Source: a virus
Virus record (IMG/VR): IMGVR_UViG_3300005526_000003
Coordinates: 1-50,056 of that record
Reading direction: 5' to 3' (one strand)
Length of the DNA: 50,056 nt
Made by a program: the position numbers and the translations under genes
In this document: positions 15,605 through 45,972 of the stretch, piece by piece
Numbering within the stretch: position 1 is the first letter of the stretch
Layout: each line of letters starts with the position of its first letter
Notes under the pieces: generated by a model
The model's input: only the letters and a program-made list of their open reading frames with translations
Told to the model about the DNA's origin: nothing
Database searches by the model: none

Positions 15605-15627
15605 TGCATTAGATGAGGGGCTTAGAC

Positions 15628-16950
15628 ATGCAGTTACACGTTATCCCCGCTGACGACATTGTAGTAAAAACCAACCGTCAGCGACGCGAACTCGACCAAT
15701 CTAAATTGCTGGAGCTAGCAGGCTCCATCGCCCAGAATGGGCTGATACACCCTCTCGTAGTCCGGCTGGCGGACGACGAATACACCCTAGTCGCCGGTGA
15801 GCGCCGGCTCAAAGCTCTCGAACACTTGTGGTTCTTGGGCCAGGAGGTCACCTGCGGTGAACGAATTATTCCTGAAGGACACGCTCCGTGTCTCTTCCTC
15901 GGGGACATTGACCCTGTGGACGCGGAAGAAATTGAACTTGAAGAAAATATACGTCGCGAGGATCTCAGCTGGAAAGAACGGGCGGACGCTGTTTCGCGAC
16001 TTGCAGATCTACGAACCCGCCAGGCTGCCGCCAATGGCAAATCCGCGCCCTCGGCGGAAGCCATCGCGGAAGAGGTCGCCGGCGACGGTAAAGGCCAGAC
16101 CATCACTAACATCCGCCAGGATATCATCCTCGGGCGCGCCCTCTCCAACCCCAAAACAGCAGAGGTGATAAAGAATGCAACCTCCCGCCAAGAAGCCTTC
16201 AAGCTCCTCAAGCGACATGAAGAATCAGAGCGACACGCCGCCCTCGGCGCTGCCCTCGGCCCGACATTCTCCTCATCTCTGCACGTTCTGCAGAGAGAGG
16301 ACTGCTTGCGTGCTATGCCTGAGCTGCCAGCGGCGTCTTTCGACGTTATTCTCACTGACCCGCCATACGGGATCGGTGCGGACGACTTCAAGGATTCGGG
16401 CGGGAAAGCTTCAGGTGGTCATTTCTACGACGATTCCTACGAGTCTTGGGCTAAACTCATACCACCTTTCGCAAGCCATTCATTCCGCCTTGCGAAAAGC
16501 GAGGCGCACCTCTACGCCTTCTGTGATGTTGAGAGGTTTGCGGAACTCAAGCAGCACCTTGCTGCGGCTGGGTGGAAAGTATTTAGAACTCCCCTCATTT
16601 GGTATAACCCAGGAGCTGTTCGAGCGCCCTGGCCCGAGCACGGACCGCAGCGGAAATGGCAAATGATCCTCTACGCGATGAAGGGAAGCAGGAATGTTAC
16701 TCGGCTTTACGGAGACGTCCTCACTTATCCCTCAGACCCTAACCTTGGCCACCCCGCCCAGAAGCCTGTTGACCTGTACTGCGATCTTCTGCGACGCTCT
16801 ATCCGACCAGGAGATGCAGTACTTGATCCTTTTGCTGGAAGTGGAACTATCTTCCCGGCAGCGCATGCGCTCAAGTGCCGGGCGACAGGGATTGAGGCAG
16901 ACGAAGCGGCGTACGGGGTCGCGGCGAAACGGCTCAAGGAGCTAGTATGA
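15628..16950 (+). CDS. ParB-like domain fused to DNA methyltransferase
   Basis: About 440 aa from ATG 15628 (GAGGGG upstream); an in-frame ATG at 15613 has no ribosome site. Residues about 1-110 are a ParB/Sulfiredoxin-type domain (NRQRRELDQSKLLELAGSI, LVAGERRLKAL, ELEENIRREDL). After an HTH-like linker, residues about 240-440 are an adenine/cytosine-N methyltransferase: VILTDPPYGIG (motif IV), then AVLDPFAGSGTIFPA (motif I) near the end, so beta-class order. Phage ParB-methyltransferase fusions usually modify DNA at short sites, which can block host restriction. The fused ParB part may guide the enzyme or bind a nucleotide. No restriction gene lies beside it. Confidence 0.9.
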   Translation: MQLHVIPADDIVVKTNRQRRELDQSKLLELAGSIAQNGLIHPLVVRLADDEYTLVAGERRLKALEHLWFLGQEVTCGERIIPEGHAPCLFLGDIDPVDAEEIELEENIRREDLSWKERADAVSRLADLRTRQAAANGKSAPSAEAIAEEVAGDGKGQTITNIRQDIILGRALSNPKTAEVIKNATSRQEAFKLLKRHEESERHAALGAALGPTFSSSLHVLQREDCLRAMPELPAASFDVILTDPPYGIGADDFKDSGGKASGGHFYDDSYESWAKLIPPFASHSFRLAKSEAHLYAFCDVERFAELKQHLAAAGWKVFRTPLIWYNPGAVRAPWPEHGPQRKWQMILYAMKGSRNVTRLYGDVLTYPSDPNLGHPAQKPVDLYCDLLRRSIRPGDAVLDPFAGSGTIFPAAHALKCRATGIEADEAAYGVAAKRLKELV

Positions 16951-17299: not shown

Positions 17300-17469
17300 T
17301 GGCTACCATGAATGAAATCTATAAGTTCTGGAAGGAAAACGGAGCGTGGGTGCGGCTGAAGGACGGCAGGGAGATGCCTATGAAAGACTTCTGGGAGGAG
17401 GTCTTCAACGCGCACCCAGAATGGTTGCGTGAGTTTGAAGCTGCTTACAATGAGACTGAGAAGAAATGA
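17299..17469 (+). CDS. Small protein, 56 aa
   Basis: ATG 17299 overlaps the preceding TAA by one base, and the end is coupled to the polymerase start (ATGA). The product is charged and Trp-rich (IYKFWKENGAWVRLKDGREMP, EEVFNAHPEWLREFE). It may form a small folded domain, perhaps one that associates with the polymerase encoded next. Function unknown. Confidence 0.6.
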   Translation: MATMNEIYKFWKENGAWVRLKDGREMPMKDFWEEVFNAHPEWLREFEAAYNETEKK

Positions 17470-19997
17470 CCGTCCTCGGTAGCGGCCCCATCCCCGCCAG
17501 GGTGATGATCGTCGGCGAGGCCCCTGGCGTGGAGGAGGAGCGCCATCACCTCCCCTTCGTCGGGCCCTCGGGAGCTGAACTGAATAGGATGCTCGGAGAG
17601 GCCGGCATCACCCGCGCCGAGTGTTACGTCACCAACCTCTCCAAGGAGCGCCCCCCTCGAAACGACATATCCCTCTGGATGCGGAAGTCCCTCAAATTCA
17701 CCTCCAAGCCTACGAAGGAGGATGAGAAGAAACGGGCGGCTGGCGTGGAGCCTCGGAACTTCGTCCGATTCAGAAACCAGCTCGTCCACCCCTTCATCGA
17801 GGATGGCTTCGCCCTGCTGAAGAAGGAGATCGATCTTGTTAGACCTCAGATCATTATTACAGTGGGCAATTCGTCAATGTGGGCGCTCACCGGCAAGTGG
17901 GGAATCACCAAGTGGCGAGGCTCAATGCTTTACGCCGACCTCGCTGGCGCGCCGAAGCTCATTCCTACCTACCACCCCGCCGCGATTCTCCGACAATGGG
18001 ATTGGCGTGCTATTGGAGTTAACGACCTTCGACGGGCCGCTAGGTTTCGAGATGGTACTCCATTTCCAGCTAAAGACTACCGCTTCGTCCTCCGACCTAG
18101 TTACGATCAGGCTAAAGGTGTATTACTTACTCTACTCTATCGCCTGGACAACTGGCCCGAGCCCCTTAGACTATCATTCGATATCGAAACTCGCGCAGGA
18201 CATATTGCATGCGCAGGAATCAGCTGGAGCTATCTGGATGCAATCTGCCTCCCTTTCATGTGTGTCGAACGGGGGGAAGGCTATTGGAGCCTGGCAGAAG
18301 AATCTCACCTCGTATCCCTCCTATGCCGAATCCTCACCCACCCCAATGTTCAAGTTGTAGGGCAGAACATCATCTACGACTCCCAGTACACTTGGAAGTG
18401 GTGGCACTTCGTCCCGCGGGTCGCCCAGGACACTATGATTAGCCAGCACTCCATCTTCTCCGACATGCCCAAGTCCCTCGCCTTCCAGGCCAGTATGTAC
18501 GCGGACCACTACGTGTTCTGGAAGGACGAGGGGAAGGATTGGGAGAAGAATATGAGGGAGGAGGAACTCTGGCATTATAATTGCCTGGATTGCGTGTACA
18601 CAGACGAGGTGGGCCAGGTAGAGCTGGAGACGGTTAAGAAGCTCAGCCTCCAGCCGGTCCATGATTTCCAGCAGGCGATGTTCTGGCCAGTCCTCCAGGC
18701 GATGCAGCGGGGGGTGAGGATAGATACTCGCCGGCGAGATGAGTTGATCCTTGAGGTCCAGGGAGAGATCGCCCGCCGGGAGACTTTCATCCAATTCCTG
18801 CTAGGCCATCCGCTAAATCCTGATTCGCCCAAGCAGATGCACTCGGTCTTCTACACCGATTTCTCCCTCCCCAAGCAGCTCAAGCGAGGTAAGCCCGGTG
18901 AGCCATCCCGCCCGACTCTTGATGACGATGCTCTTAACAAGCTCGCTCGTCTTGAGCCTCTTATCCGTCCTCTTGTTAACGCCATCCTTGATATCCGAAC
19001 TCTTCGAAAGTTTCTTTCTAATTTCCTGTGCCGTCCTCTTGACAGTGACGGTCGCATGCGTTGTTCTTTCAATATAGGAGGATCCGCCAGTGGTAAATCC
19101 GCACCCCGCACCTACCGCCTCTCCTCGTCCGAGAGTGCCTTTGGCTCTGGCACCAACCTCCAAACTATCCCCTCGGAGAAATCGAAAAGTATTAATAAAG
19201 CTGCGGCGCGAGGGCCAATTGACGGAATCGGAGATCCTTACGCTTTCCCGAATATTAGGGAGATCTTCATTCCTGACCCAGGCTACACCTGGTTCGACCT
19301 TGACCTCGAAAGGGCTGACCTTTTCGTCGTATGCTGGGAAGCCGAGGACGATCTCCTTAAGACTGCGATGCGGATGGGGGTGGATATTCACCTTCTCAAT
19401 GCCTTTGTTCTGGCCGGCAAAGAGCCGCCCCCGCTTGAGGAACTAGTAAAAGGACACCCCCGGTATGAAGATTACCTTGGACCCCGTAAGAGTGCCAGAG
19501 AGTTCGCCAAAACCTTCTGCCACGGAACCAACTACGGCGGTAAGCCCCCCACAATGGCAGCAAACACTGGACGAACTATACGAGAGACTGAAAGAGCTCA
19601 GCGAATCTGGTTTGGGGCGCACCCTGGGATACTCAAGTGGCACGAAAGGGTCAAGGATCACGTTGTTAGACGTAGGTTTGTCGAGAATAGATTCGGAAAC
19701 AGGTGGTACATTTTCGATAGAATTGATGGTGTCATACCGGAAGCCCTAGCTTGGATACCGCAATCCACGGTCTCCATCGTTATCAATAGGATCTGGGAGC
19801 GCATCTACCGGGAGGTTCCCGAGGTGCAGGTTCTTCTCCAGGTTCATGACTCCCTCCCTGGACAGTTCCCTACGAGTCGCCGCGATGCTTGCTTGACTCG
19901 CATCCAAGAATGTGCTAAGATTGTGGTTCCCTACCCGGACCCGTTGGTCATACCGGCGGCCATCAAAACCTCCGAACTTAGCTGGGGGCACTGCTAA
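17466..19997 (+). CDS. Uracil-DNA-glycosylase/3'-5' exonuclease/DNA polymerase A fusion
   Basis: 843 aa. Residues 1-190 match the UDG superfamily (family 4/5-like): VMIVGEAPG, PFVGPSG and, near 170, TYHPAAIL. The usual N-terminal CxxC of the iron-sulphur cluster is missing. Residues about 230-400 hold a DnaQ-like exonuclease (SFDIET; later NIIYDSQ; YNCLDCVYTD). The polymerase follows: motif A FDLDLERADLF (the gate Glu is Asp here), the O-helix region with FCHGTNYGG, and motif C LLQVHDSLP, where Ser replaces the usual Glu after HD. The fusion should remove or sense uracil while copying phage DNA. It is the replicative polymerase and is followed at once by a P-loop protein. Confidence 0.93.
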   Translation: MTVLGSGPIPARVMIVGEAPGVEEERHHLPFVGPSGAELNRMLGEAGITRAECYVTNLSKERPPRNDISLWMRKSLKFTSKPTKEDEKKRAAGVEPRNFVRFRNQLVHPFIEDGFALLKKEIDLVRPQIIITVGNSSMWALTGKWGITKWRGSMLYADLAGAPKLIPTYHPAAILRQWDWRAIGVNDLRRAARFRDGTPFPAKDYRFVLRPSYDQAKGVLLTLLYRLDNWPEPLRLSFDIETRAGHIACAGISWSYLDAICLPFMCVERGEGYWSLAEESHLVSLLCRILTHPNVQVVGQNIIYDSQYTWKWWHFVPRVAQDTMISQHSIFSDMPKSLAFQASMYADHYVFWKDEGKDWEKNMREEELWHYNCLDCVYTDEVGQVELETVKKLSLQPVHDFQQAMFWPVLQAMQRGVRIDTRRRDELILEVQGEIARRETFIQFLLGHPLNPDSPKQMHSVFYTDFSLPKQLKRGKPGEPSRPTLDDDALNKLARLEPLIRPLVNAILDIRTLRKFLSNFLCRPLDSDGRMRCSFNIGGSASGKSAPRTYRLSSSESAFGSGTNLQTIPSEKSKSINKAAARGPIDGIGDPYAFPNIREIFIPDPGYTWFDLDLERADLFVVCWEAEDDLLKTAMRMGVDIHLLNAFVLAGKEPPPLEELVKGHPRYEDYLGPRKSAREFAKTFCHGTNYGGKPPTMAANTGRTIRETERAQRIWFGAHPGILKWHERVKDHVVRRRFVENRFGNRWYIFDRIDGVIPEALAWIPQSTVSIVINRIWERIYREVPEVQVLLQVHDSLPGQFPTSRRDACLTRIQECAKIVVPYPDPLVIPAAIKTSELSWGHC

Positions 19998-22130: not shown

Positions 22131-22535
22131 TTAAGTCCTTATGAGTGTAACAACCTGTTTCCAATGCGGCAGTTCGAAGTGGGGGTACTCCATAAACCCG
22201 GAGGTCGGGTTGCCGAGCCAGGTGAGCCCCGCCTGCTCTCCCATATCCCCTATCGTTATCCAGACCGGATCGAGCGTACTCCACTCCGGCTTCCCATTCA
22301 CGATCGGTACTACGTCGATCGCCATTCCATAGTTGTGGGCCGATTGCCCCGGCATGGCTCGGGTGACGATCTTCCCCGGCACACTCCGCCCCTGCGCATA
22401 AAGGGCCGCCTGGTCATCCAGCGACCGATACGTGCAGGTCACCAGCAGATCGATCCCTGCTGCCGCTACGGCATCCAGAAACTTATCCACCAGCGGCCTC
22501 ACCTCCGGTCTCAAATCATTCAGCGACCTACTCAT
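22131..22535 (-). CDS. Endolysin, M15 peptidase (L-alanyl-D-glutamate/VanY-like)
   Basis: 134 aa; ATG 22535 overlaps the previous stop (TGATG) and is preceded by GGAGG. The zinc-site motif S-x-H-x(6)-D is present as SAHNYGMAID (His about 85, Asp about 92), and a third ligand lies in PHFEL near the C-terminus. This is the M15 family, which cuts peptide cross-bridges in peptidoglycan. There is no signal peptide, so it relies on the holin. It lies between the Acb2-like gene and the holin gene. Confidence 0.92.
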   Translation of the reverse strand: MSRSLNDLRPEVRPLVDKFLDAVAAAGIDLLVTCTYRSLDDQAALYAQGRSVPGKIVTRAMPGQSAHNYGMAIDVVPIVNGKPEWSTLDPVWITIGDMGEQAGLTWLGNPTSGFMEYPHFELPHWKQVVTLIRT

Positions 22536-22762
22536 CAAATCCTCCCCGTCTTATGCGCGGACCTCAGCCCTACCCCGAACCAGTACCTCGCCTCTTCGAG
22601 TCTCGTCGAAGCCACCGCCAAAGCCCGCCGCGCTTCAACTCCATCGATACCTCTCGCTGTCTCAACCGCTCTCTGCGCTTCGTCCATGACCAGGGAGAAT
22701 TTCCTAAGTTCCTCCACCACTCTCTCAAACTGTTTACCAGGCTGGTGGTCATCTGGATTCAC
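22535..22762 (-). CDS. Acb2-like small helical protein, 75 aa (possible cyclic-nucleotide sponge)
   Basis: GTG 22762 is coupled by GTGA to the gene before and its stop overlaps the endolysin start. The C-terminal half (VEARRALAVASTRLEEARYWF, then GVGLRS) follows the R-x-x-A-x-A-x-T-x-L-E-E-A-x-x-W pattern of the Acb2/Tad1 hairpin family. Acb2 proteins bind cyclic di- and trinucleotides and block CBASS (and some Thoeris) immune signalling. The N-terminal helix (ERVVEELRKFSLVMDEAQRAVE) would complete a helical bundle. The match is from memory of the family pattern, so the function is inference. The alternative is an unrelated coiled-coil protein of the lysis cassette. Confidence 0.5.
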   Translation of the reverse strand: MNPDDHQPGKQFERVVEELRKFSLVMDEAQRAVETARGIDGVEARRALAVASTRLEEARYWFGVGLRSAHKTGRI

Positions 22763-23783: not shown

Positions 23784-24182
23784 TTAAGGAGGTGGACCGC
23801 CAGGGAGAAAGCAACCCCCGACGGAGTCGCCGGGGAGGCCATCCATGCTGAGGGTGGTGCAGGGGAATCCTGTGCTCACCCCCGGCAGCATGCACCCTCC
23901 CACCGCCACGCCGGGGAGGGAGCCACTCGTCTCGAGGGTGCAAATCTGAATATCTACCTCCCCCATCGTCTGTGGATAAGGGATCGCCATCTCCTGGCTG
24001 TTGATTGCGTGGACGAAATCTTGCGCCGGGCGAGGCTCGTTGCAGCGAACGTGCCTCCACATCCCCTGCCAGTTCCGCACCGCATCCCCGAACTTGAGCT
24101 TCGTCCCACATATGCTGCAGATTATGTTCCAATCCCCAGGCTTCCAGTAATCCTCTGGCCCGGGTGCGGGAGGGCTACCCAT
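23784..24182 (-). CDS. Phage Zn-ribbon protein, 132 aa
   Basis: ATG 24182 overlaps the PurD-like gene by eight bases. The N-terminal part is a family widely found in tailed phages: YWKPGDWNIICSICGTKLKF, then MWRHVRCNEPRPAQDFV, with CxxC plus a later C for metal binding. The C-terminal half is Gly/Pro/Cys-rich with repeated LPG-G motifs (SLPGVAVGGCMLPGV, GLPGDSVGGCFLPGG). The family is common near tail genes but has no agreed function. An overlapping frame at 23737-24132 is a shadow. Confidence 0.75.
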   Translation of the reverse strand: MGSPPAPGPEDYWKPGDWNIICSICGTKLKFGDAVRNWQGMWRHVRCNEPRPAQDFVHAINSQEMAIPYPQTMGEVDIQICTLETSGSLPGVAVGGCMLPGVSTGFPCTTLSMDGLPGDSVGGCFLPGGPPP

Positions 24183-25518
24183 ATCGCATCCCTATGCAGT
24201 AGCCGTGCTTCTGCAGCCGCTTCAGGTTAACCTCGAGGCTCGCTCCGATATCGGTGCGGAACATCAGGTTGGAGGGGATGCTCAGGCCCCAGGCCACTTC
24301 GTAGGCGGCGTTGGCCGCCTCCCGTACCGTCTCGCCGGTGCCTGTCACTACGCAGGGGAAGTTACCCGCCGTGCAAATCTCCGAAACATTCTCCACTTTA
24401 TCCCCCACCAGCATCGGCATCTTCCCCATCATCGCCTCCTGCCAGTGGATATTCTTCTCCACCCTCTCGCTCACTCCGTAGATCGGATACCCTTCCCAAG
24501 TCCCAAGAGGATCCTTCGGACGCGAATCTCCCCCGCGTGGGAAATCTCCATGCACCAGGCACACGCCCACGGCTATATCGGAGGAGGGGCGGAAGGTGTC
24601 CTTCCCTTCCAGCAGGTCCTTCATCCACTCCACCGGGTCTCCCCGAAGCAGGGCCTGACGAATACAGAAGTCGGGCCATCCGAGTCTCATTGTGAATTCC
24701 AGCGGCCATGCGTTCCCCTTCTTATCCACGATGCAATTGACATTACAGTCGCCCACGTAATTGATCTGATGGAGGTAATCGGAGATGGGGTCGAGGATAT
24801 CGTCGAACAGTTTGCTGCGGGGGACGTGTCGGATAACTGTGCCCATCTCCCCAGTGTTCTCCCCGAGGTTGTCGTTGAGGAATTTCTTGTGCTCAAAGCT
24901 CTCCTCCAACATCCGACACCAGCCGGCGGGGCCGAACATCCCCGAGATCCCAACCTCCACCCCTTCGGTCTTCTCCTGCATCATCAGCTGTCCTTTGAAC
25001 TTCCCCTCCTTCTTCCACCGCAGCACGGTAAAGATCGCATCGTCCACGGTGCTGGAGACGTAGGTCATCGCCTTGTCGGCCTCCCCTCCCCAGGGCTTCA
25101 TCGCGTAGGGCTGGCGGGTCTTGATGATTAGCTCAATAGCCTCCTCTGGACTGGAGACCACCTTGTAGGGGATTGTCTCCACGCCAGAGTCCTGGAGGAC
25201 CTGCTGGCCCAGCTCGCGATTGCACTCCAACTCCGCCGCTTTCAAATTGCAGCCGAAGATCGGATAGCCCTTTCCGAAGTAGGGCACTAGGTCCGGCATG
25301 AAGTTCGCATTGCCCGTCAGGATCACCAGGTCCGCCCACTCCATACTGGGCTGCCACTCTTTTACTTTACCTATCATCCCATCCCCATAGGGGCGAGAAT
25401 CGCCCGTGCCGGCGAAGGGGGGAAGCCAGTACCTCACATCGTGGTCAGCGTTAAACGCGCGCACCGCCAAGTCGAGGCCGCTGGCCTCCCCTGCGTTGTC
25501 CATCAAGAAGACCTTCAT
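24175..25518 (-). CDS. PurD-like ATP-grasp enzyme in the virion operon
   Basis: 447 aa; ATG 25518 (GGAGGAGCA upstream) overlaps the ejection-protein stop (ATGA); a longer frame starts at 25539. It resembles phosphoribosylamine-glycine ligase (PurD): GYPIFGCNLKAAELECNREL (ATP-grasp lead-in), YAMKPWGGEADKAM, EKTEGVEVGISGMF, HKKFLNDNLGENTGEMG (the D/EHKR...NTGGMG block), PLEFTMRLGWP (the EfNvRfGDP metal site), and TGTGETVREAANAAYEVAW. PurD joins phosphoribosylamine and glycine in purine synthesis. In this phage the Glu-rich metal site reads EFTMRLGWP, so the substrate may differ. Possible roles: purine supply, synthesis of a modified nucleotide or small molecule, or ligation onto a virion protein. 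Confidence 0.8.
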   Translation of the reverse strand: MKVFLMDNAGEASGLDLAVRAFNADHDVRYWLPPFAGTGDSRPYGDGMIGKVKEWQPSMEWADLVILTGNANFMPDLVPYFGKGYPIFGCNLKAAELECNRELGQQVLQDSGVETIPYKVVSSPEEAIELIIKTRQPYAMKPWGGEADKAMTYVSSTVDDAIFTVLRWKKEGKFKGQLMMQEKTEGVEVGISGMFGPAGWCRMLEESFEHKKFLNDNLGENTGEMGTVIRHVPRSKLFDDILDPISDYLHQINYVGDCNVNCIVDKKGNAWPLEFTMRLGWPDFCIRQALLRGDPVEWMKDLLEGKDTFRPSSDIAVGVCLVHGDFPRGGDSRPKDPLGTWEGYPIYGVSERVEKNIHWQEAMMGKMPMLVGDKVENVSEICTAGNFPCVVTGTGETVREAANAAYEVAWGLSIPSNLMFRTDIGASLEVNLKRLQKHGYCIGMRYG

Positions 25519-28500
25519 TGCTCCTCCGGAGGCGTCCACGTATTCCGTACGTGCTTCTTATTCGAGTGGGGGAGGAGCAAATCCACTTCCTCCGGGCTGG
25601 CCTTGTTGAGGATCTTAATCTGTTCCTCCCAGGGCAGCCGGCTGAACATCCTCACCTCCGAAGGCAGGGTTGAGTTGAGGGAGCGAATCAGCCGGCGCTG
25701 GTCGTCGCCCGAGAGTTGGAACTTCTCCACCATCCCATCCAGCTTCTCTCCATAGCTATCCGCCCCCGACTGATAGGCCTGCCGCAGTTGTGTATACTCT
25801 TTGGAGTACTCGGCTCGTTCGAAGGGTGTCTCCCGTGGAGCAACGTAACTGCGGAAGGCCTGTTTAATATGAGCAGTGGTGACGGACTCGGTGAGGTACT
25901 TGGGCGCTGGCGTGAAGCCCATCGCGGACAACACCCCCATCTTCTCCGGTCGATCGGTGATCTGCTCCTGCATGCTACGCATGGAGATTGGTTCGATATC
26001 CGCCATCGTGTAGGCGAGAGTTTGCTCGAGCTTTGTAAAGGCGTCCGATTCTGGATCTCGAATCTTCTGCCCGAACCCATTCACGCCAGTCGCCCATTCG
26101 TGCATCAGCCCGAACAGGCCCGATCCCTTATTGAGAGCCAACTCCGAGACGCCCGACACCATGCCTTCATTCTGGATATGCTTGTACAGAGAGGCGAATT
26201 CTCGAGAGTAGAACATTGTCGTAACGCGCTGATCACTGCCATCCGGATTCTTCTCACCCGTTCTGGGAGAGATATAGTCGAGGCCCGTCGGCTGCTCCCC
26301 CGTCATCGCCCAGGTCATCAGCCCCGCCACGCCAGCGCCCAGCGCCGTGTAGGCCGAGACAAACAGGACCTTATCCATCTCCCCCTTCCTAATCCTCCCA
26401 ATCTTATCCGAGCCTTTTGCCCACTGCCCCAGGTCCAGCATCCCTCCCCCATACTCTCGGATGAAGCCGAGCTGCCAGCCGAGGCTCAGTGTATCGAGCA
26501 CAGCGATATCCTTCATCCACCGCTTCCAGAACAGCTTGTTGTAAGCCATTTCTCCGTATCTATTATCTACCGACTTCCCAATCCTCCTCATCGCCAGGAG
26601 GCGGGCGGCATCATTCTCCAGCAGTTCGGGATTACGCGCCAGCAGGCTCTTCGCATCCTTAATGGCAGATGCGGCCTTGAGGGAGGGAATCCACGCTTCG
26701 AAGACTGGCGCGCCCATCGCACTCAGCACTGCCCAGGGCGCATGCCAGGTAGCCTTCACTACATCGCCCGCAGCATGCAAGGGCCGTATCTGTCGCATCT
26801 CTGCCATCGCATCCCGCAGCGCATTCGCAAAGTTCTGCCTAGCGTTGGTCCGATACTGAACAGACATCTCCGGCGCTACACCCGTCTCGATCAGGATCTT
26901 AAGCGCCTGCGCATCCGCAGTGGTGAGCTTGCTAGTGGGAATCTGCCCCTTCCAAGCCTTCATTACCCTCCACCCCGCCTTCGGGTTCTCGAAGACTGGC
27001 CCGAAGCTCGCCCTCAGCATCTTCCCGAATCCGTGGATCGGGTTGATCTGACCGGATAGCATCTCCGCCATCGCCCTCGTATATCCTGCTGCCATGTCGA
27101 TGCCAGCGACGTGCAGCGGGTGGAATAGGCTGAGCGCCAGCCGAATCGGCACCACCGCATTCTTCAAACTCATCATCCCTCTAAACCCAATCCCCGCTAT
27201 CCCTTTATCTCCCCAGAGACTGAACGATTTAAAGGCGTTCTGCATCACCGCATCTGCATGCTGGTCGATCCAGTACACCTCTCCATTCGGCGCTCGCCAG
27301 CGGACGCTCCCCTCCGGCTGCTTCGTCCCCTCCGTCTTCTCCACTCGAAAGCTCACCTTCCCCTCCGGGTCGATATCCCTTACAATCCTTTCTCCTCCAA
27401 CCACTTTTCGAGTTGCCAAGCCAAATCGCTCAAAGTCCTGGAGAATGTTCGTATGCATCTCTGCCAGATCGCTGGCGTGCTGGCGTGCGAGCATAATATC
27501 TTCTGGGTTGGAGAATCGGGGTCGGAAGCCGGCGGCAATTGCCTCCTTATAAAGATCAAAGGATCTGTCCTTGATGAATCCTGGGTCGCCCCACTTGCTC
27601 CCATACTTCCGGGTGAAATACTCTGCGACGCCCGATGAATCCTCGAAGACGTGATAGAGATAATTTTCCCGCGGTTCATAGCTCAGCCCCGTCTTAGCAT
27701 CCTGATCCGCAATCCTCTTCCCCCAGGCGCGATAGTGGTTGGCGATCCGCTGGAGGATAGAATCGGAGAACCCTTGGCCCTTCTCGAATCGCTCGATGAA
27801 CTCGGCGGTCATATCAGGCCGAGCACGCCAGAAGTTGGCCCTCGTCTTGGAGCCGGCGTGCCACGCCGAGGTCCGCTGCTCCAGCTCAGTAATCCTACTG
27901 GCGATCGTCGCTGCGGCCAGCTTCGCATTCCGACCTAGCGACTCGGGGGAGACGGCTCGGATGATTTGCTCAACGGAGATGGCGAGAGAGGATTTCGCCT
28001 TACGGACGGCAGCATTATCAACCGGCTTCCCGATCACCGGCGTGGCTCGCTCTATGTCGCCCCTCGTAATTACTGCATCTCCCTCCCTCGCTACGATCTG
28101 GGAGATGCTGTGGTGAGGCGGCTTATGCTCGGCCTGCAGCTTGATGAGCTGCGTCCCCACCTTCATCGACTGATTCAGCAGCTGCAGCTCATGCGGTCCC
28201 TTCAGCCCGAGGTGCCGACCGATCAGCATTCCCAGCTGATTCAGCATGTTCTTCCATTTGTAGCCAATTGAAGCATACTTCTCAGAATTAGCCAGGAATT
28301 CTTGAAACTCACTATTACTAAACAGCTCAGCCACAAACTCATGCCGGGGGCTCATCCGGTTGAAGGCCATCGCAGTTCGTGCCCCATAGAAGTCCTGCCT
28401 TACGCTCGCCCCCCTCAGCCCGTAGAAGTCCCTCCCTGCCCTCTTCGCCCTGAGCCTCGCCTCTGCAATGATCTGATCCAGTTCCTTCATTATAGGTGCG

Positions 28501-29651
28501 CTGGGATTATTCACCACATGCATCGTTTCTGGAAGAGTTAGATCCCTCCCCAGCTCTGCTTTCTTCGCCTTTATATCCCGATCTAAGAAGTCCTCCATCA
28601 TATTCACAGTGGCAGAGTGGACAATCTCATGTGTAGTTGTCTGAACGATATGCGCTGCCTGCTCTCCCGTTAGAACCTCAATCTGATGTATCTCTGGCTT
28701 GTAGACGCCCAGATACCCGGGCAGCCTCCTGCTGAACATAACAGGCACATTCTTATCCATGTGCTCCGCTAGCTTAGTCAGAAAGCTCTTCGCATATCCC
28801 TCTGCGTGAGGGAGCATCCGATCAATTATTTGTCCAGCAGGAATCACTGTCTGATCGGGTAGCTTTGTCAGCCTCTCTCCCTCAATATTCGCTACCCTGC
28901 TGAACCCCATCGTCTTATCCAGCGCCGCCGTAACCGCAGCCGGCTTCACCTCCGGTGGGATCGAATCAGCCGCTCTGGTCGATTCAGTAACGTCCCTCAA
29001 CGCCACCCGCGCCTTCGCCGCCGCCTGCTCTGGAGTAGCAAGAGCCTTCGCTCCCTTCAGTCCCGGACCTGGGATGAACATCGTCCCTAGGTCGTAGGCG
29101 AAGTCCAACGCGGTGTCAGTTGCGTTGACCGTATTCAGTATATCCCTCTTATGAATCGCCCAATCAATCCCCTTCTTCTTCGCCTCATCCGGCGAAGCCG
29201 CCCTGGCGAGCAGCGCCCCCGCCCTGTCCAGCCCTCGCTGAATTGGCGCTACAATGGCCGCTCTCCCCGCTTCCAGCAGGGGTGCGATCCCAATGTTCAG
29301 CAGATCCATTGCTGTCTTCAGTCCGTGGAGAGGCTCAGCCTCCGCGCTCGGATCAGCGAAGTCTTCTTTGTACTGGGCAACCGCCTGCCGATAACCAGCC
29401 ACCGCAGCATCCAGACTCGGCTGTATCTCCTCCTGAATCTTCCCCTTCGCCTTCTCCACGCCAGGCTTCATGCCCTCCAGCTTCTTCCCTCCCTCAATCG
29501 CCACATCTCTCAGCTTGCTGCCGAGCGAAGCCGGCTTCGGCTGGGCGGCCAGCACCTCTTGGATGTTAAGCCCTCTAGCCGCCGGTGGGGGAGGGACCGT
29601 GCCCGCTGGCACGTCCGGCGTTTTCAGCGCGTCGGCGAATTCAATCGGCAT
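25515..29651 (-). CDS. Very large internal virion/ejection protein with zincin protease domain, 1,378 aa
   Basis: Starts at ATG 29651, overlapping the previous gene by 11 bases (GAGGA upstream). The long helical/Ala-rich N-terminus is followed by a metallopeptidase domain: LGVYKPEIHQIEVL, the zinc motif HEIVH at 341-345, and about 95 residues later RHEFVAELFSN, the expected third-ligand region. The middle holds helical regions (AEFIERFEKGQGFSDSIL). A likely membrane segment (AYTALGAGVAGLMTWAM) lies in the C-terminal third. By size and order (third of three large genes after the tail genes) it is probably an ejection protein delivered with the DNA. The protease might cut a host or virion protein on entry. 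Confidence 0.85.
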   Translation of the reverse strand: MPIEFADALKTPDVPAGTVPPPPAARGLNIQEVLAAQPKPASLGSKLRDVAIEGGKKLEGMKPGVEKAKGKIQEEIQPSLDAAVAGYRQAVAQYKEDFADPSAEAEPLHGLKTAMDLLNIGIAPLLEAGRAAIVAPIQRGLDRAGALLARAASPDEAKKKGIDWAIHKRDILNTVNATDTALDFAYDLGTMFIPGPGLKGAKALATPEQAAAKARVALRDVTESTRAADSIPPEVKPAAVTAALDKTMGFSRVANIEGERLTKLPDQTVIPAGQIIDRMLPHAEGYAKSFLTKLAEHMDKNVPVMFSRRLPGYLGVYKPEIHQIEVLTGEQAAHIVQTTTHEIVHSATVNMMEDFLDRDIKAKKAELGRDLTLPETMHVVNNPSAPIMKELDQIIAEARLRAKRAGRDFYGLRGASVRQDFYGARTAMAFNRMSPRHEFVAELFSNSEFQEFLANSEKYASIGYKWKNMLNQLGMLIGRHLGLKGPHELQLLNQSMKVGTQLIKLQAEHKPPHHSISQIVAREGDAVITRGDIERATPVIGKPVDNAAVRKAKSSLAISVEQIIRAVSPESLGRNAKLAAATIASRITELEQRTSAWHAGSKTRANFWRARPDMTAEFIERFEKGQGFSDSILQRIANHYRAWGKRIADQDAKTGLSYEPRENYLYHVFEDSSGVAEYFTRKYGSKWGDPGFIKDRSFDLYKEAIAAGFRPRFSNPEDIMLARQHASDLAEMHTNILQDFERFGLATRKVVGGERIVRDIDPEGKVSFRVEKTEGTKQPEGSVRWRAPNGEVYWIDQHADAVMQNAFKSFSLWGDKGIAGIGFRGMMSLKNAVVPIRLALSLFHPLHVAGIDMAAGYTRAMAEMLSGQINPIHGFGKMLRASFGPVFENPKAGWRVMKAWKGQIPTSKLTTADAQALKILIETGVAPEMSVQYRTNARQNFANALRDAMAEMRQIRPLHAAGDVVKATWHAPWAVLSAMGAPVFEAWIPSLKAASAIKDAKSLLARNPELLENDAARLLAMRRIGKSVDNRYGEMAYNKLFWKRWMKDIAVLDTLSLGWQLGFIREYGGGMLDLGQWAKGSDKIGRIRKGEMDKVLFVSAYTALGAGVAGLMTWAMTGEQPTGLDYISPRTGEKNPDGSDQRVTTMFYSREFASLYKHIQNEGMVSGVSELALNKGSGLFGLMHEWATGVNGFGQKIRDPESDAFTKLEQTLAYTMADIEPISMRSMQEQITDRPEKMGVLSAMGFTPAPKYLTESVTTAHIKQAFRSYVAPRETPFERAEYSKEYTQLRQAYQSGADSYGEKLDGMVEKFQLSGDDQRRLIRSLNSTLPSEVRMFSRLPWEEQIKILNKASPEEVDLLLPHSNKKHVRNTWTPPEEQ

Positions 29652-30783
29652 CTGAATCGTCCTCTTCGTCCTCTTCGTCTTCCCCCTCCGTCGCCTTCAG
29701 CTCACTCTCCGTGTAGAATTTACTCCCCATCGCAATCATCGGCTGGCCATTAACCATATACCACTGATTCTGCCTGACCGACTTGGCATCCTTCGGCAGC
29801 GGTAGCGGCGCCCCCGCCTTCGATCCCTTCACCACCGGGGCCACCCGCAGGCCGGTAAAGACCCCTGAACTCCGGGCATTTTCATATACCCTGCGGGCCG
29901 CCTCAGATTCTGTCAGATGTTGATCCCTCACCATCCTCACCATCTCCTCGGCCAAAGGCCGGGAGCGAACGCGGAGATCGGCAGCATCCGCGCCAGGGTA
30001 GTCGACCTCCGCCAGATCGGTCATCGCCTTCAGCTGCTGCGCCTTCACCGGCGTCCCGCCCTCCTTCTTCACCTTCGTATCCCGATCCAAGGCGAGCTGG
30101 GTCTGGGCTCGGATCAGGGGGATCCTCGCCGCATCCACCAGCCCTGCCATCTCCGCATGTGCTCCCGCCTTCTTCCGATAGTCGACCTCCGCCTGCTCCT
30201 TCGCCGTTAGCACTGCCCGCTTTACTTCATCCATCATCCCCGGCCTCCAGGGCTGCTGAGCGAGCTGGGCGAACCTCTTATCCTTCACCACGCCAGGGTC
30301 CGCCGCCACCATCGCTTGAATAGCCTGAGCGTACCCGCCGGGGCTGTCCGGTACTCCATCTAAGATGTTGGCGAACTTCGACAGCCTATCATTCTGCATC
30401 CGATAGTTTCGAGAATCGACCTTCGACGCTGTGTCGGCTATTCGAGCGGCCGTCGAAGCCGTCTTCGCCGCGGCATCCGGCATTCCACTCTCGAGTTGAA
30501 TCGTCGCCAGCTCTGTAAAGACCCCCGAGAGTGCATCCGGGCTATTCACATCCTGGGGCGGATGGAGGTTCTGCATCAAGCTTAACATCCTCACTTGCTG
30601 CGCTAGCTGGATCTTATCCTTCTGCAGCTGCATCTGCTCTTCCTGCAGCTTGATCGGGGCCTCCTGGAGACGGAACTTATTGAGTTCCACCTCCTGCCCA
30701 CCCAGTTGGATCCTCTGCAGATCGAGCTGGCTCTCCAGCATTCCCGAGGTAAATCCACCGCCCAGTGCACCTGATTCCGGCAT
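29641..30783 (-). CDS. Coiled-coil internal virion/ejection protein, 380 aa
   Basis: ATG 30783, two bases after the previous stop. Residues about 20-75 are a long coiled coil (LDLQRIQLGGQEVELNKFRLQ, IKLQEEQMQLQKDKIQ). The rest is helical, with a C-terminal extension (YMVNGQPMIAMGSKFYTESEL) and a final acidic run (EGEDEEDEEDDSDAD). No enzyme motif. It is probably the middle of three ejected proteins, forming part of the trans-envelope channel for DNA. Confidence 0.75.
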   Translation of the reverse strand: MPESGALGGGFTSGMLESQLDLQRIQLGGQEVELNKFRLQEAPIKLQEEQMQLQKDKIQLAQQVRMLSLMQNLHPPQDVNSPDALSGVFTELATIQLESGMPDAAAKTASTAARIADTASKVDSRNYRMQNDRLSKFANILDGVPDSPGGYAQAIQAMVAADPGVVKDKRFAQLAQQPWRPGMMDEVKRAVLTAKEQAEVDYRKKAGAHAEMAGLVDAARIPLIRAQTQLALDRDTKVKKEGGTPVKAQQLKAMTDLAEVDYPGADAADLRVRSRPLAEEMVRMVRDQHLTESEAARRVYENARSSGVFTGLRVAPVVKGSKAGAPLPLPKDAKSVRQNQWYMVNGQPMIAMGSKFYTESELKATEGEDEEDEEDDSDAD

Positions 30784-30784
30784 C

Positions 30785-32587
30785 TCACCCTCCGTACTGC
30801 GGTAGGCCCGCTATGTTCTGCCCGCTGATCCCCACCGGCGTCTGGGAATTCAGCATCCCCGCCTGCCACTGAGCGATCAGGTTCGTCAGCAAACCGCCCA
30901 CCGCACCCTTTGTAGGTGCTCCTTCGCTGGTATTTGCATCTCTCCACCCCGCTGCTCCTCCCATGGAGGTGATCCAGGGCTGGACGACTTGGGTGTAGAT
31001 TTGGGCAGGGTTGGCGTCGGGGGCGATCTTCCCTCCCTTGATGGCGTTGTTGATTGTCTCAGCCATTCCCACAGTGAATTGCGTCTCTCCCATCCTGCCG
31101 TATCGCTGGTAAAAAGGTATAGAAGAACCGCGAGAATCAAAGATTCCAGTAAGAGCTTGGAAATTCTGCGCAGGCGAAGCACCAGCAACCAGGGAGGGAT
31201 TCTTGTGGTATGCAGCGGCATAGTTGTTCCACCCCACATTCTCTGGGTCCATCTTCCCCGGGCCGAAGGCGCTGGACAGGGCACCGACCGCCGCACCGAC
31301 TCCCGCACCGATCACAGTCCCCACTCCCGGTATTACCGATCCGATCGAGGCGCCTGTCGCCGCCCCGCTCAGAGCATCCGCGCCGGTGTTCCCTGACTGC
31401 CAATTCTTCGCAAAGTTATAAACTGAGAGAGGGATGGCGGCGTAGCCCAGCGCACTTCCTACTTCGCTCGCGGTCCCGCTCGAGAGCAGCCCCGCCGCCT
31501 TTCCTCCCATCACCCCCAGCCTGGCTGCATCTATTCCCGCCTGCCCGTATCCCGACACACCGCCCGCCTTTACTCCCTGGATGATTCCCAGGATGTCGCC
31601 TCCAGCCGCGCCCACCGCGCTGAGGTTCTTCGCAATCTGCGGGTCCATGCCGGGATAGCGGGAGAGAAATGAGGCGGCGCTCAGGGCTGCTGCCCCGGGT
31701 TTGCCGCTCGCCAGATTTAATCCGATCCCTGCCAACCCGCCTCCCATCGCGGCGGCTTCCCCGCCAGCGGCTTTAAAACTGAACATTCCCGTTAGATCAG
31801 GGACCGAGACAGCACCATCTGGGTAGCTGGTAGCTCCGCCCCCTCCTCCCGCTACTAGGTCGCCTCCACTTCCACCAGCCCCAAAGAGACTGGGGATGTT
31901 ATTGAGGTTCGGATCCTGTTGGAAGGCCAGGTCTTGGTAGCCGAGGTTCAGATCCGTATCGATCCCCGGTGCTCCGGCCCAGTAGGGGGTTGCATCGCTA
32001 CTTCCGCCTCCTCCGAATCCACTCGCCAGTCTGGAGAGTAGGCTAATGCTCCCCGGCAGTCCGCCCGCAATTCCTCCGACTGAGCTACCCAAAATGTTCG
32101 AAGCGCCCGCCATGCCTTGGAGGGCCTGGAAGGGATTCGCCGGCGAGATATCCGCACCGGCGAGGTGAGAGAGAGTACCGACCTGTTGCTGATAGAACGA
32201 GTCCGCTAGACCCTGACCATACTTTATCAGATCCGCATCCATCCCTCCCGATCCGTATCCCTTGCCGCCCGGCGCCGCTGCCGTCCTCGCAATAGCCTCT
32301 GTCCCCTGGTCCATCAGGAATTGGTATCCGGGGAGCTTGGTGACCGAGCTGGGATTCTGCATCAGCTTCAGTAGGTCCGCCCCGTACCCTGCCCTGTACC
32401 CCCCGAAGGGATCGCTCTGGCGGAATACGTCCTGAGCGGCGCCCTGGAGGTGGGCGCCCTCATACAGCCCATAGAGGTTGCCGGCGAGGTTCAGCCCCGC
32501 GCTGATATCCTGCATCCAAGGAGGAGTAGTATTTCCTCCCCCTCCTCCGCCCATTGCATCGTTCAGCTGATACTGGGGAGCAGGCAT
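30785..32587 (-). CDS. Gly/Ala-rich ejection-type protein with glycine zipper, 600 aa
   Basis: ATG 32587. It is rich in Gly, Ala and Ser with repeated GG tracts (MGGGGGGNTT near the start; FGGGGSS; GAGGSGGD). A glycine-zipper membrane segment is present (GASIGSVIPGVGTVIGAGVG), followed by a compact C-terminal domain (VGMAETINNAIKGGKIAPDA). Such features fit the first ejection protein of podoviruses, which can insert into or lie against the inner membrane. It has no metal-site or nuclease motif. Confidence 0.75.
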   Translation of the reverse strand: MPAPQYQLNDAMGGGGGGNTTPPWMQDISAGLNLAGNLYGLYEGAHLQGAAQDVFRQSDPFGGYRAGYGADLLKLMQNPSSVTKLPGYQFLMDQGTEAIARTAAAPGGKGYGSGGMDADLIKYGQGLADSFYQQQVGTLSHLAGADISPANPFQALQGMAGASNILGSSVGGIAGGLPGSISLLSRLASGFGGGGSSDATPYWAGAPGIDTDLNLGYQDLAFQQDPNLNNIPSLFGAGGSGGDLVAGGGGGATSYPDGAVSVPDLTGMFSFKAAGGEAAAMGGGLAGIGLNLASGKPGAAALSAASFLSRYPGMDPQIAKNLSAVGAAGGDILGIIQGVKAGGVSGYGQAGIDAARLGVMGGKAAGLLSSGTASEVGSALGYAAIPLSVYNFAKNWQSGNTGADALSGAATGASIGSVIPGVGTVIGAGVGAAVGALSSAFGPGKMDPENVGWNNYAAAYHKNPSLVAGASPAQNFQALTGIFDSRGSSIPFYQRYGRMGETQFTVGMAETINNAIKGGKIAPDANPAQIYTQVVQPWITSMGGAAGWRDANTSEGAPTKGAVGGLLTNLIAQWQAGMLNSQTPVGISGQNIAGLPQYGG

Positions 32588-38493: not shown

Positions 38494-39411
38494 TCATTCT
38501 CCTCGTCGCTGCTCCGCGGTTATCGCGGAGGGACCATTATATTCAGTGACAAAATGTTTCCGCCAGGCGGCTTGATCTTTAAACGCTTTGTTAGTACCTA
38601 CGAATTTCGCCTCTTGTTCATCGCACTTCGCCCGGGCCTCAGGCGGTAGGTCGGCGTAGCCTCGCCCGGAGGGGCGGCCCCCTCCCCTTCCTTCCGACCT
38701 GCTCTCCTCCGTCTTCGGAGGCGCCTGCCGGCGGCTGTTCCCACCCAGTGTCTTCTCCACTTCTTCCCTCGCCTCGTTCAGAAGGGCAGTGCCCTCCACA
38801 TCCCCCACCCTCGCATCCCCAGCCTGCCGTCTCTCCAGCATCACCGCGTTGAAGAGCGCCACCTTTCTTGTATTCTTAAAGAAGTCATCATTCGTCTCAA
38901 TGAACTCCTTCACCCAGGGTTGGATGGCAGGCTGCTGCTGCCCGTTCGGCTTCGTCTCCTGCTTAACTGGCTCAGGTTTCTTCACAACCTCCCCCAGCTC
39001 GTTCTGCAGCTCCGCCACCCTCACATCATCGCCCGCCTCTCGAGCAGTCTTCAGCTCCTGGCCAATCTCTACCTTCCTCCGCTCCGTTCTTTCCTTCGCC
39101 ATGTCGGCGTTGAAGGTCTTAACTTCCTCCACCGACGCTCGGGTGGCGGCGAGGTCGGCCTCTAGCCTCTGTCTCGCCTGCCTCTCCGCATCCAGCGCCG
39201 CCTGCAGTTTCTTCCTATCGTGCTGGAGAAAGGGGATGAAGGTCTCCCCCTTCTTCACGAACTCAGCCGCGTCCACCCAATTCTCCGGCCTTCCCTTCCA
39301 CTGTTCCTTGGGCTGCCAGCCCATCCCCCGAGCCTCACGCTCGGTGTTCTCGGAGGACCTTTCTTCTCCACCACTCTCAGTGCTCTCAGTCGATGTAGTT
39401 TCGTCAGTCAT
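38494..39411 (-). CDS. Probable scaffolding protein
   Basis: 305 aa; the ATG lies eight bases inside the end of the GroES-like gene. It is highly charged, with a long helical/coiled-coil core (KKLQAALDAERQARQRLEAD, NADMAKERTERRKVEIGQELKTAREAGD), a Gly/Arg-rich linker (RGGGRPSGRGYADL) and an acidic N-terminus (TDETTSTESTESGGEE). A C-terminal basic/aromatic segment (FKDQAAWRKHFVTEYNG) could contact the capsid. This is the typical make-up of a scaffold that guides shell assembly and is then lost. The place before the capsid genes supports it. Confidence 0.75.
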   Translation of the reverse strand: MTDETTSTESTESGGEERSSENTEREARGMGWQPKEQWKGRPENWVDAAEFVKKGETFIPFLQHDRKKLQAALDAERQARQRLEADLAATRASVEEVKTFNADMAKERTERRKVEIGQELKTAREAGDDVRVAELQNELGEVVKKPEPVKQETKPNGQQQPAIQPWVKEFIETNDDFFKNTRKVALFNAVMLERRQAGDARVGDVEGTALLNEAREEVEKTLGGNSRRQAPPKTEESRSEGRGGGRPSGRGYADLPPEARAKCDEQEAKFVGTNKAFKDQAAWRKHFVTEYNGPSAITAEQRRGE

Positions 39412-39727
39412 GTTTCTCTTCCTTCACCGCATAGATGGCGTGGTCCGGGATCATTCGATAGATGAATCCATCCGACCCTGGCAGCACTCCACCTGAAAAG
39501 CGGGTTATCAATACTTTATCCCCGACCTTCGCCCGGGGCGTCTCCAGCGGTCCATTCCAGCAATCCGGGCCAATCTCTACTACTAATCCTTGCGTATCGC
39601 AGGTGGCTGAACTCATCGCCACCTCCGCTGTTACTTGGATGAGGGATTGCTTCTCCGCCAGTTCAAACGCTCTAAGCAGCACGGCCTTTCCTACTGGTCG
39701 ATATCCCGAGTTGTTCTCTACCTTCAC
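39404..39727 (-). CDS. GroES-like co-chaperonin, 107 aa
   Basis: I favour GTG 39727 because AGGAGG stands six bases before it; an in-frame ATG at 39742 is the other choice. The order matches GroES: YRPVGKAVLLRAFE (the RPLHDRVIV-type opening strand), a loop with sequence variation, GLVVEIGPDCWNG (the GEVLAVG-type strand and turn), KVGDKVLITRFSG (the VGD-x-V strand) and DHAIYAVKEE (end strand). GroES-like proteins cap GroEL while capsid proteins fold. The location next to scaffold and capsid genes suggests folding of the capsid protein. The mobile loop differs from GroES, so GroEL binding is not certain. Confidence 0.7.
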   Translation of the reverse strand: MKVENNSGYRPVGKAVLLRAFELAEKQSLIQVTAEVAMSSATCDTQGLVVEIGPDCWNGPLETPRAKVGDKVLITRFSGGVLPGSDGFIYRMIPDHAIYAVKEEKHD

Positions 39728-39968
39728 TTCTTTCCTCCTCATTCAGCTCATCTGCATCTATATCGATTATCTCTTGCAGCGTCCTCAGTGCAGTAACAGC
39801 GCTGGTATTGGCAGCGGTGCAGACGTTCGGGTTCTCACTGTTGAACCTCCCCTCCGCCCACTGCTCCTTCAGCTCCGTTACCCTTCGGTGCAGGTAGTGC
39901 CAGAGCGCCCTTCCCGCCGGCGTTGCTTTCATCTCCACCAGCTCTTCCTGATTTATCATCGCCTTCAT
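39672..39968 (-). CDS. Small helical protein, 98 aa, overlapping portal C-terminus
   Basis: ATG 39968 or 39959 (MKAM; GGGAG upstream) lies inside the portal gene in another frame, with about 130 bases of overlap. The sequence TPAGRALWHYLHRRVTELKEQW matches a small phage family that occurs at this same place, next to portal or scaffold genes. It has two helices, an acidic end and no metal motif. The high coding density and familiar pattern make a real gene likely. Confidence 0.65.
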   Translation of the reverse strand: MKAMINQEELVEMKATPAGRALWHYLHRRVTELKEQWAEGRFNSENPNVCTAANTSAVTALRTLQEIIDIDADELNEEERSEGREQLGISTSRKGRAA

Positions 39969-44357: not shown

Positions 44358-45161
44358 TTATCCCTGAGACTCGCCATAGGTTCCGAACACTGGGTTACCG
44401 GGGGCGCTGCCCAGGGAGTAGATGAAAAACGGTACGCTGCCATTGTAGATGCGGGGGAAGCAACCTGTTAGGCAATCACCGGAGCCAAAGTTCGCCAACA
44501 GCTGGAGCATGGTTAGGGGACGGTAGGCGACGACGTTGATGGTACCAGAGGTCCACGCATTCGAGAGGGTAATCGACTGCACCGAGCGCACGCCGGTGTC
44601 GCCGGCTTGGAGGCCGATTAGGAAGGTCGAGCCTGCCGCTGGCGCTCCTACTGTTGCGAAGATGTTCGCGCCTGAACGGCTCGCCGTCCCCGCCTGATTC
44701 GTATAGCCGAGGGTGAAGGTCGGCGTTGCCGCCCCCACTACCGTTACGGATACATCTACCGCGAGGAACACCCCCGTTCCGCCAGTGCCGCCGGTCGCAT
44801 CGCGGGAGGGCCAAGTGGGGGAGGCGATGGTCTGGGAGGTGGTGCTAGTAACATCGATGTTGCCGTTGTCCCAGATCCGATCACAGAGCATCACCCACCC
44901 TCCCGGCGTGCCGGAGAGGTGGGAGAAGTGGAGGCGGGCGAGATTCGTGTTCAGGCCGCCGCCGGGATCGGTGTGCGGGAGCTGACCATTAACTGGTGCA
45001 GTATAGGTCGCGCCGTTCAGGGTGTTATTCCAGCTCCCCGCCCCCGGTATGCCGATCTGGCCCCAGGTTGTCTGTGGGCGGGTGATAGCAAGGGCAGCTT
45101 TCGCGAAGGACCGTACCGGCTGCACACCGGCGAGCATCCCGTCCAGTGTTGTGATTGTCAT
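44358..45161 (-). CDS. Tandem paralog 3 of 3, fibre-region protein, 267 aa
   Basis: I chose ATG 45161, overlapping the previous TAA by one base (TAATG); the frame upstream lacks plausible sequence. It resembles its two neighbours over the whole length: MTITTLDGMLAGVQ start, PHTDPGGGLNTNLARLHF, LCDRIWDNG, WPSRDATG, YTNQAGTASRSG, LQAGDTGVRSVQ, CFPRIYNGSVPFFIY end. It is the most diverged of the three. The role is probably in the tail (fibre-tip, collar or baseplate-like). Confidence 0.7.
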   Translation of the reverse strand: MTITTLDGMLAGVQPVRSFAKAALAITRPQTTWGQIGIPGAGSWNNTLNGATYTAPVNGQLPHTDPGGGLNTNLARLHFSHLSGTPGGWVMLCDRIWDNGNIDVTSTTSQTIASPTWPSRDATGGTGGTGVFLAVDVSVTVVGAATPTFTLGYTNQAGTASRSGANIFATVGAPAAGSTFLIGLQAGDTGVRSVQSITLSNAWTSGTINVVAYRPLTMLQLLANFGSGDCLTGCFPRIYNGSVPFFIYSLGSAPGNPVFGTYGESQG

Positions 45162-45970
45162 TAGCCTGCTGTCTCCAAGTAGTGACCCGCCACCAGGGCG
45201 ATCGTCGCTCCGGAGGGAACGTATATGAGGAAGGGGACGGTGCCGTTGAAGATCTGAGGAAACCCTGCAGTGATCGCATCGACGGCGGAGGAGAATCCTA
45301 GCACCGGCGACTCGAGCGCTGCCAGCACCCGGTAGGCAACCATATTGATGCTGCCCGAGGTCCACGCGGTTGAGAACTGGATGTTCTGGATCGAGCGCAC
45401 CCCAGTATCACCTGTCTGTAGCGTGAGGCGAAAGAACCGATTCGCCGCCGTGCTGGTCGTCGGGGTGTCCAAGAAGAGGCCGGTGTGGGAGGCTGTTCCT
45501 GATTGGTTAGTGTAGGTGTAGCTGGATAGTACCGCTGCGGTTGCGGAGACGGTTGCCGCGACCTCGATCCCGATCAGGATACCATCCCCATTCGTACTCC
45601 CCGCCACGTCGCGGGCGGGCCAGGCTACGCTATTAACTGTCTGATTCGTAACGTCGTTAATCGCAGGCCGTCCATCCCACAGCCTATCACACAGGAGTAT
45701 GGTACCGGAGCCAGCGTTCCAGGCTGTCTGTATACGGGCGAGGTAGGCATTTGATCCGCCTGGCGGATCAACGTGGGGAATCTGTCCTGTTACAGGAGCA
45801 ACGTAGGTTGCACCAGCGATGCCAGTATTGAAGCTACCCGCCGCCGGTTGCCCACCGATGCCCCAGAGACTCGTCGGCGTCCCCGCCACCGGCGTTGGGG
45901 AGGAGCCCTTGGAGATCTGTTGGACCTGTTGCAGGTTGGAGATCACGCCGTTAAGTGTAGTAATAGCCAT
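45161..45970 (-). CDS. Tandem paralog 2 of 3, fibre-region protein, 269 aa
   Basis: ATG 45970, two bases after the previous stop. It shares with the next copy upstream and the one downstream the same blocks: LNGVISNLQQVQ, PHVDPPGGSNAYLARIQ, LCDRLWDG, WPARDVAG, YTYTNQSGTASHTG, LQTGDTGVRSIQ, FPQIFNGTVPFLIY. Beta-rich, no signal or membrane segment. The three copies probably arose by duplication and may assemble as a heteromer or let the phage vary one part of its tail. Confidence 0.7.
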   Translation of the reverse strand: MAITTLNGVISNLQQVQQISKGSSPTPVAGTPTSLWGIGGQPAAGSFNTGIAGATYVAPVTGQIPHVDPPGGSNAYLARIQTAWNAGSGTILLCDRLWDGRPAINDVTNQTVNSVAWPARDVAGSTNGDGILIGIEVAATVSATAAVLSSYTYTNQSGTASHTGLFLDTPTTSTAANRFFRLTLQTGDTGVRSIQNIQFSTAWTSGSINMVAYRVLAALESPVLGFSSAVDAITAGFPQIFNGTVPFLIYVPSGATIALVAGHYLETAG

Positions 45971-45972
45971 GA

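Follow-up and report, generated by a model that had tools for sequence, protein, structure and literature searches.

A PurD-related ATP-grasp ligase with a predicted altered amine pocket in the virion operon of short-tailed phages

The DNA considered here, hereafter the window, comprises the 50,056 nucleotides of the IMG/VR virus record IMGVR_UViG_3300005526_000003, and it appears to be a complete phage genome of ∼50 kb because its two ends carry a 70-bp direct terminal repeat (positions 1-70 and 49987-50056). Its portal and adaptor genes match those of SU10-type phages. The original prediction, made from the letters alone, had placed a PurD-like ATP-grasp enzyme at 24175-25518; these coordinates correspond to exactly one open reading frame, and its strand, which had not been given, is the minus one. 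The gene encodes 447 residues, starts with the ATG at 25518 and stops at 24175-24177. A GTG at 25539 is the less favored start, since the relatives of the protein begin downstream of it.

The ligase stands in a virion operon, and the neighbors given below with coordinates lie on the same strand. Directly upstream is a large putative internal virion or ejection protein of 1378 residues (25515..29651), whose end overlaps the start of the ligase by 4 nt; it is called an ejection protein by its size and position, and it has no family match. Behind it are a 380-residue protein (29641..30783), a neighbor kept across loci, a DNA-ejection-like protein of 600 residues (30785..32587) that matches phrog_598, "DNA ejection", at 1.9e-7, a head-closure protein and further virion genes. 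On the other side, the end of the ligase overlaps by 8 nt a 132-residue Zn-ribbon-like protein of the pattern CxxC...C...ExRxPQDF (23784..24182), and fibre-like and VanY-type endolysin genes (the latter at 22131..22538) follow. The setting described originally, a virion and lysis operon, is thus the one found, and the reported absence of other purine genes is borne out by a Pfam scan, in which none of the 56 other open reading frames of the window matched one.

Other features of this genome deserve a mention of their own. The Zn-ribbon protein and its homologues end in a tandem, five-residue-like repeat, SAIPG-YAIPG-CSIPG, the endings of which (PG, PD or AD) vary in concert from phage to phage. 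One reading frame has a Pfam Cpn10 match (7e-5) and is probably that at 39404-39742, judging by position and sequence; in the phage MW202796, a "chaperonin 10 kd subunit" is annotated among the head genes. Three tandem paralogous genes of ∼270-335 residues, recognized by eye from the translations, stand among the virion genes at 44358-46791. A family A DNA polymerase is fused to a uracil-DNA glycosylase domain at 17466-19997, and an N6/N4 DNA methylase to a ParB N-terminal domain at 15613-16950. Finally, in other loci (L046, L048-L050, L066, L070 and L072) the virion operon repeatedly includes a GNAT-like protein, ∼4-5 genes upstream of the ligase gene, and MW202796 has one that is annotated as an N-acetyltransferase.

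That the protein is of the PurD type is supported by similarities far above chance. It matches Pfam GARS_A at 3e-10, GARS_C at 3e-4 (under the cut-off of that family) and NCBIfam purD (TIGR00877) with 94.5 bits and an E-value of 6e-27, a score well below the curated cut-off of 288; among 37 members of the ligase family, the best purD E-value is 5e-33. A phmmer search of the PDB with the window protein reaches 1e-18, and a profile of the family recovers from the PDB PurDs only, the best at 1.3e-38. The structure prediction and comparison proposed at the outset agree with this picture: the AlphaFold2 model (pLDDT 93.3, pTM 0.91) has the ATP-grasp fold with its conserved ATP-binding residues, and it shows the PurD fold over its full length, with VIA-align Z-scores of 31-34 to every listed PurD over ∼390 residues. 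PurK, PurT, biotin carboxylase and PylC follow at Z ∼22-24, and nothing other than a PurD exceeds 24.

The active site, in turn, departs from PurD in a consistent manner. In the Aquifex aeolicus enzyme, ATP is contacted by K103, K143, E185, E192 and K214, glycine by D212, R287 and E292, and the metal by E100 and K214 (PMC8880213). By alignment, these and neighboring sites correspond in the window protein to E98, R101, K141, Q181, E188, E209, K211, E274, T276, R278, W281 and D283, and they were checked across 56 PurD-like sequences. Seventeen positions do not vary in any of the 56: E98, R101, K141, E188, E209, K211, G223, E224, G226, T227, E274, T276, R278, G280, P282, R421 and D423. What is kept from PurD comprises E100, K143, E192, K214, E283, R287 and the R and D of RxDIG. 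What is exchanged in all 56 comprises K103 for R, D212 for E, G227 for E, the A/V/S at 230 for T and N285 for T; E185 is replaced by Q in 55 and by M in one cellular member, most of the family has W or Y in place of D290, and the position of E292 is variable. Loss of the ATP-grasp catalytic residues, which the original prediction had named as evidence against itself, is therefore not what is seen: the ATP and phosphate set (K103, K143, E192 and K214 in PurD) is invariant as R101, a conservative change, K141, E188 and K211. By contrast, only R278 persists among the three glycine contacts, the other two being E209 in place of D212 and D283, or a variable residue, in place of E292.

Two blocks concentrate these exchanges. 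The first, EFTMRLGWPDF (24667..24699 on the minus strand, codons 274-284 counted from the ATG at 25518), contains the EFTMRLGWP that had been noticed at the beginning, and it reads as reported; it holds E274, T276 (N in PurD), R278, which corresponds to the carboxylate arginine, W281 (D in PurD) and D283 (E in PurD; variable). Its metal residues, E274 among them, are assigned as in ATP-grasp enzymes generally. The second, EHK...GENTGEMGT (24838..24894 on the same strand, codons 209-227 by the same count), holds E209 (D in PurD), K211, E224 (G in PurD) and T227. In addition, the N-terminal GxGGREH loop, which in PurD is generally taken to hold phosphoribosylamine, was not found in the ligase family, while GGREH is present in eight of eight PurDs. 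The suspicion that metal or substrate use might differ finds support in the changed residues; the change is family-wide and extends to more positions than the block first noticed. With the ATP and carboxylate residues kept and the glycine-amine contacts changed, the enzymes are predicted to bind ATP and activate a carboxylate as PurD does, with an amine side rebuilt uniformly across the family.

How widespread is this enzyme? At least 244 loci were confirmed in IMG/VR (80 kept), and 28 relatives are found in GTDB genomes. The phages are short-tailed, and hundreds carry the gene just behind that of a putative injected protein. Some GTDB relatives lie in prophage-like loci of Paraburkholderia, Glaciimonas and others, with virion-operon neighbors in most; others are cellular, from Altiarchaeales, DPANN archaea and one Cytophagaceae chromosome, and plasmid copies occur in Halarchaeum and Roseomonas. 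A tree of 65 proteins was built from the 56 PurD-like sequences (the window protein and 55 relatives from phages, prophages and scattered cellular genomes) and nine PurD sequences, i.e., eight annotated PurDs and one long-branched archaeal PurD-like paralogue. The two sets separate with support of 100/100 on branches of 1.5 and 1.8; by its sequence, then, the ligase is placed in a separate clade with long branches and did not arise recently from PurD. Within this clade the cellular genes group in a further supported subclade, which includes one short contig with a phage-like neighbor (L111). As a guide to function their neighborhoods were of no help, with no partner common to them; the sole recurring one is a radical-SAM-like gene, beside the relative in two related archaeal contigs. 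On the Altiarchaeales contig, at L108:13366-14772, the altered gene is accompanied at no great distance by another PurD-like gene, which carries the standard GPNTGGMG signature.

The first explanation to consider is that the protein is an ordinary though divergent PurD, which makes glycinamide ribonucleotide and boosts the purine supply. The homology and fold over the full length speak in its favor, as do the retained carboxylate arginine and RxDIG, and surveys do report viral GART/PurD as purine genes. Nevertheless, glycine-amine contacts and the GxGGREH loop are altered or lost throughout the family, the scores lie under the purD cut-off, the phage has no further purine gene, the position is in a late operon and the separating branch in the tree is long. 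An ordinary PurD is on these grounds unlikely, and the statement that a simple purine pathway is not to be expected here is supported, though a viral auxiliary metabolic gene for purine synthesis may also occur singly.

The gene is real, complete and strongly constrained, with dN/dS of ∼0.03-0.15 between close relatives. Its position is likewise preserved. Upstream sequence sufficed for a judgment in 74 loci; in 63 of them the start of the ligase coincides or nearly coincides with the end of a large, same-strand open reading frame, and in 49 of these 63 the overlap is exactly 4 nt. The large upstream frames form several clusters; their size and position mark them as putative ejection proteins, homology to that of the window being shown for part of the loci. 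Of 80 loci that have the Zn-ribbon gene downstream, 53 hold the ligase, directly before the Zn-ribbon gene in 47 of them, and 26 do not; the remaining locus is too short on the upstream side. The Zn-ribbon protein was hence dismissed as a dedicated partner of the ligase, as it occurs in many phages that do not have it.

In five related phages (L279, L280, L282, L285 and L326), nothing lies between the gene of the ejection protein and the Zn-ribbon gene. Their ejection protein has 34-44% identity to that of the window over >700 residues, to be compared with 36% for one ligase carrier (L281), and the ATGA junction is retained in two of them (L280 and L285). A profile search of these five whole records, which may be incomplete although the junction is intact, returned no copy of the ligase, while all six carrier records were matched. 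Since the ligase occupies a fixed site and is absent from related phages whose ejection protein runs straight into the next gene, it is an accessory gene, dispensable for building such virions; and this status argues against an indispensable modification of the virion.

Such a modification is nonetheless the second explanation that the locus calls to mind: the ligase would attach an amino acid or small amine to a virion protein, e.g., the ejection or the Zn-ribbon protein, and so serve infectivity in certain hosts. The fixed site, the stop-start coupling to a large virion frame in most loci and the adjoining Zn-ribbon gene are in line with it, yet related phages have both the ejection-protein family and the Zn-ribbon protein without the ligase, the Zn-ribbon neighbor is missing in other lineages, and the cellular relatives stand alone without a common partner gene. 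All considered, this role is improbable. Still less can be said for a catalytically dead PurD fold retained as a structural or scaffold part. The replacement of the metal ligand N285 by T and the location among virion genes would fit it; the invariant ATP, phosphate and carboxylate residues, the low dN/dS, the same residues in the cellular members and the existence of related phages that have this ejection-protein family and no ligase make it very improbable. A last possibility is that the ligase enters the virion and then the host together with the ejection protein, to act early in infection in takeover or counter-defence. The coupling of the two genes would yield like amounts of both proteins, but there is no packaging signal and no PADLOC match, the latter of little weight as PADLOC lists defence and not anti-defence systems; this is a distinctly doubtful reading.

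What, then, is the ligase likely to be? The explanation preferred here, to which we give a probability of roughly 0.6, is an active ATP-grasp carboxylate-amine ligase of PurD-like ancestry that uses substrates other than glycine and phosphoribosylamine; that ancestry, the residue swaps, the fixed position, the constraint and the absence from related phages at this site are observed, and the activity, substrate class and timing we infer. Mg-ATP would be held by E98, R101, K141, E188, K211 and E274/T276, and R278 would bind a small acid, probably an amino acid, by its carboxylate, which would be converted to an acyl phosphate. Attack on the latter by some amine that is not phosphoribosylamine would then form an amide. 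The pocket of E209, E224 and W281 would take the place of the glycine amino-group site of PurD (D212, G227, D290 and E292), where E224 may replace the lost E292 in holding the ammonium group. The stop-start overlap suggests that the ligase is probably co-translated with the large virion protein upstream, and therefore expressed late. Its product would be a metabolite or small modification useful in late infection of some hosts, rather than a step of de novo purine synthesis. One point against a substrate switch is that R287 is kept and that the D to E and K to R exchanges are conservative, so that activation of glycine is possible; the retained C-terminal RxDIG motif likewise makes a phosphorylated or ribose-like partner possible. 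Of the original interpretation, the PurD-type enzyme, the virion operon, the improbable purine pathway and the altered residues are supported, while ligation to a phage or host component and a counter-defence product are candidate roles. A bolder version, in which a virus-dominated family of amide ligases is packaged with or acts on the ejection machinery and makes an as yet undescribed metabolite or protein modification that aids host takeover or evasion, is speculative and rather unlikely.

These results bear on the manner in which viral genomes are read. Viral purD/GART genes are listed as purine genes (PMC11360552, PMC11097641, PMC12043954) and surveys take their presence as a sign that phages raise the purine synthesis of their hosts. 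DNA encoding EFTxRxGWP occurs in at least 120 stretches of IMG/VR, and 118 of the 119 checked belong to the ligase family; DNA encoding GPNTGGMG occurs in 19, of which 17 are true PurD, a ratio that is indicative only because the two patterns are unequal in length and strictness. The PurD homologues of IMG/VR found by signature are thus mostly of the altered family (at least 118 contigs, compared with 17 for true PurD), and many viral purD/GART calls may belong to it, mislabelled as purine genes. Several of the 17 contigs with true PurD (L249-L266) have identical scores. Matches in the "phages" collection besides MW202796 were set aside as mostly ordinary PurDs or unannotated proteins of low identity, and the two entries opened are bacterial purH-purD contigs.

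The fold and the class of chemistry are known. The substrate-switched, virus-dominated branch, on the other hand, appears undescribed, because PHROGs, PADLOC and BFVD hold no matching family, NCBIfam gives only purD below its cut-off, and no paper on it was found; a literature search likewise found nothing on a late-operon or ejection-linked ATP-grasp enzyme of phages. The BFVD matches to other viral ATP-grasp proteins are weak and cover the query only in part (TM ≤0.42 of the query). With its predicted changed pocket, its prophage copies in cultured bacteria such as Glaciimonas and Paraburkholderia and its cellular homologues open to assay, the family makes the ligation reaction directly testable.

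Among known systems, the closest is PurD itself (GAR synthetase; GARS_A/GARS_C, TIGR00877). The ligase shares with it the full-length fold and domain order, the ATP, phosphate and carboxylate residues, the T-G-x-x-G loop and the C-terminal RxDIG; it differs in the amine-side contacts, the metal-ligand N and other active-site positions, all switched, in the missing GxGGREH, in an identity of only ∼20-24%, in its separate clade and in not belonging, in this phage, to an operon of purine genes. PurK, PurT, biotin carboxylase and PylC have in common with this fold class the N-A-C ATP-grasp architecture and acyl-phosphate chemistry, although their structural match to the ligase is clearly weaker than that of PurD. 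The cellular "phosphoribosylglycinamide synthetase C domain-containing protein" and its relatives fall on the ligase side of the tree against PurD, and those of the Halarchaeum and Roseomonas plasmids, the Cytophagaceae chromosome, Altiarchaeales and DPANN have R101, E209, E224, T227 and T276; they are, however, stand-alone genes in a subclade of their own, with 24-31% identity to the phage protein. Finally, jumbo phages and giant viruses have ATP-grasp peptide ligases, R2K among them, which are also viral ATP-grasp enzymes, proposed as protein modifiers (PMC7824862), whereas the family described here is derived from PurD and resides in phages of ∼50 kb.
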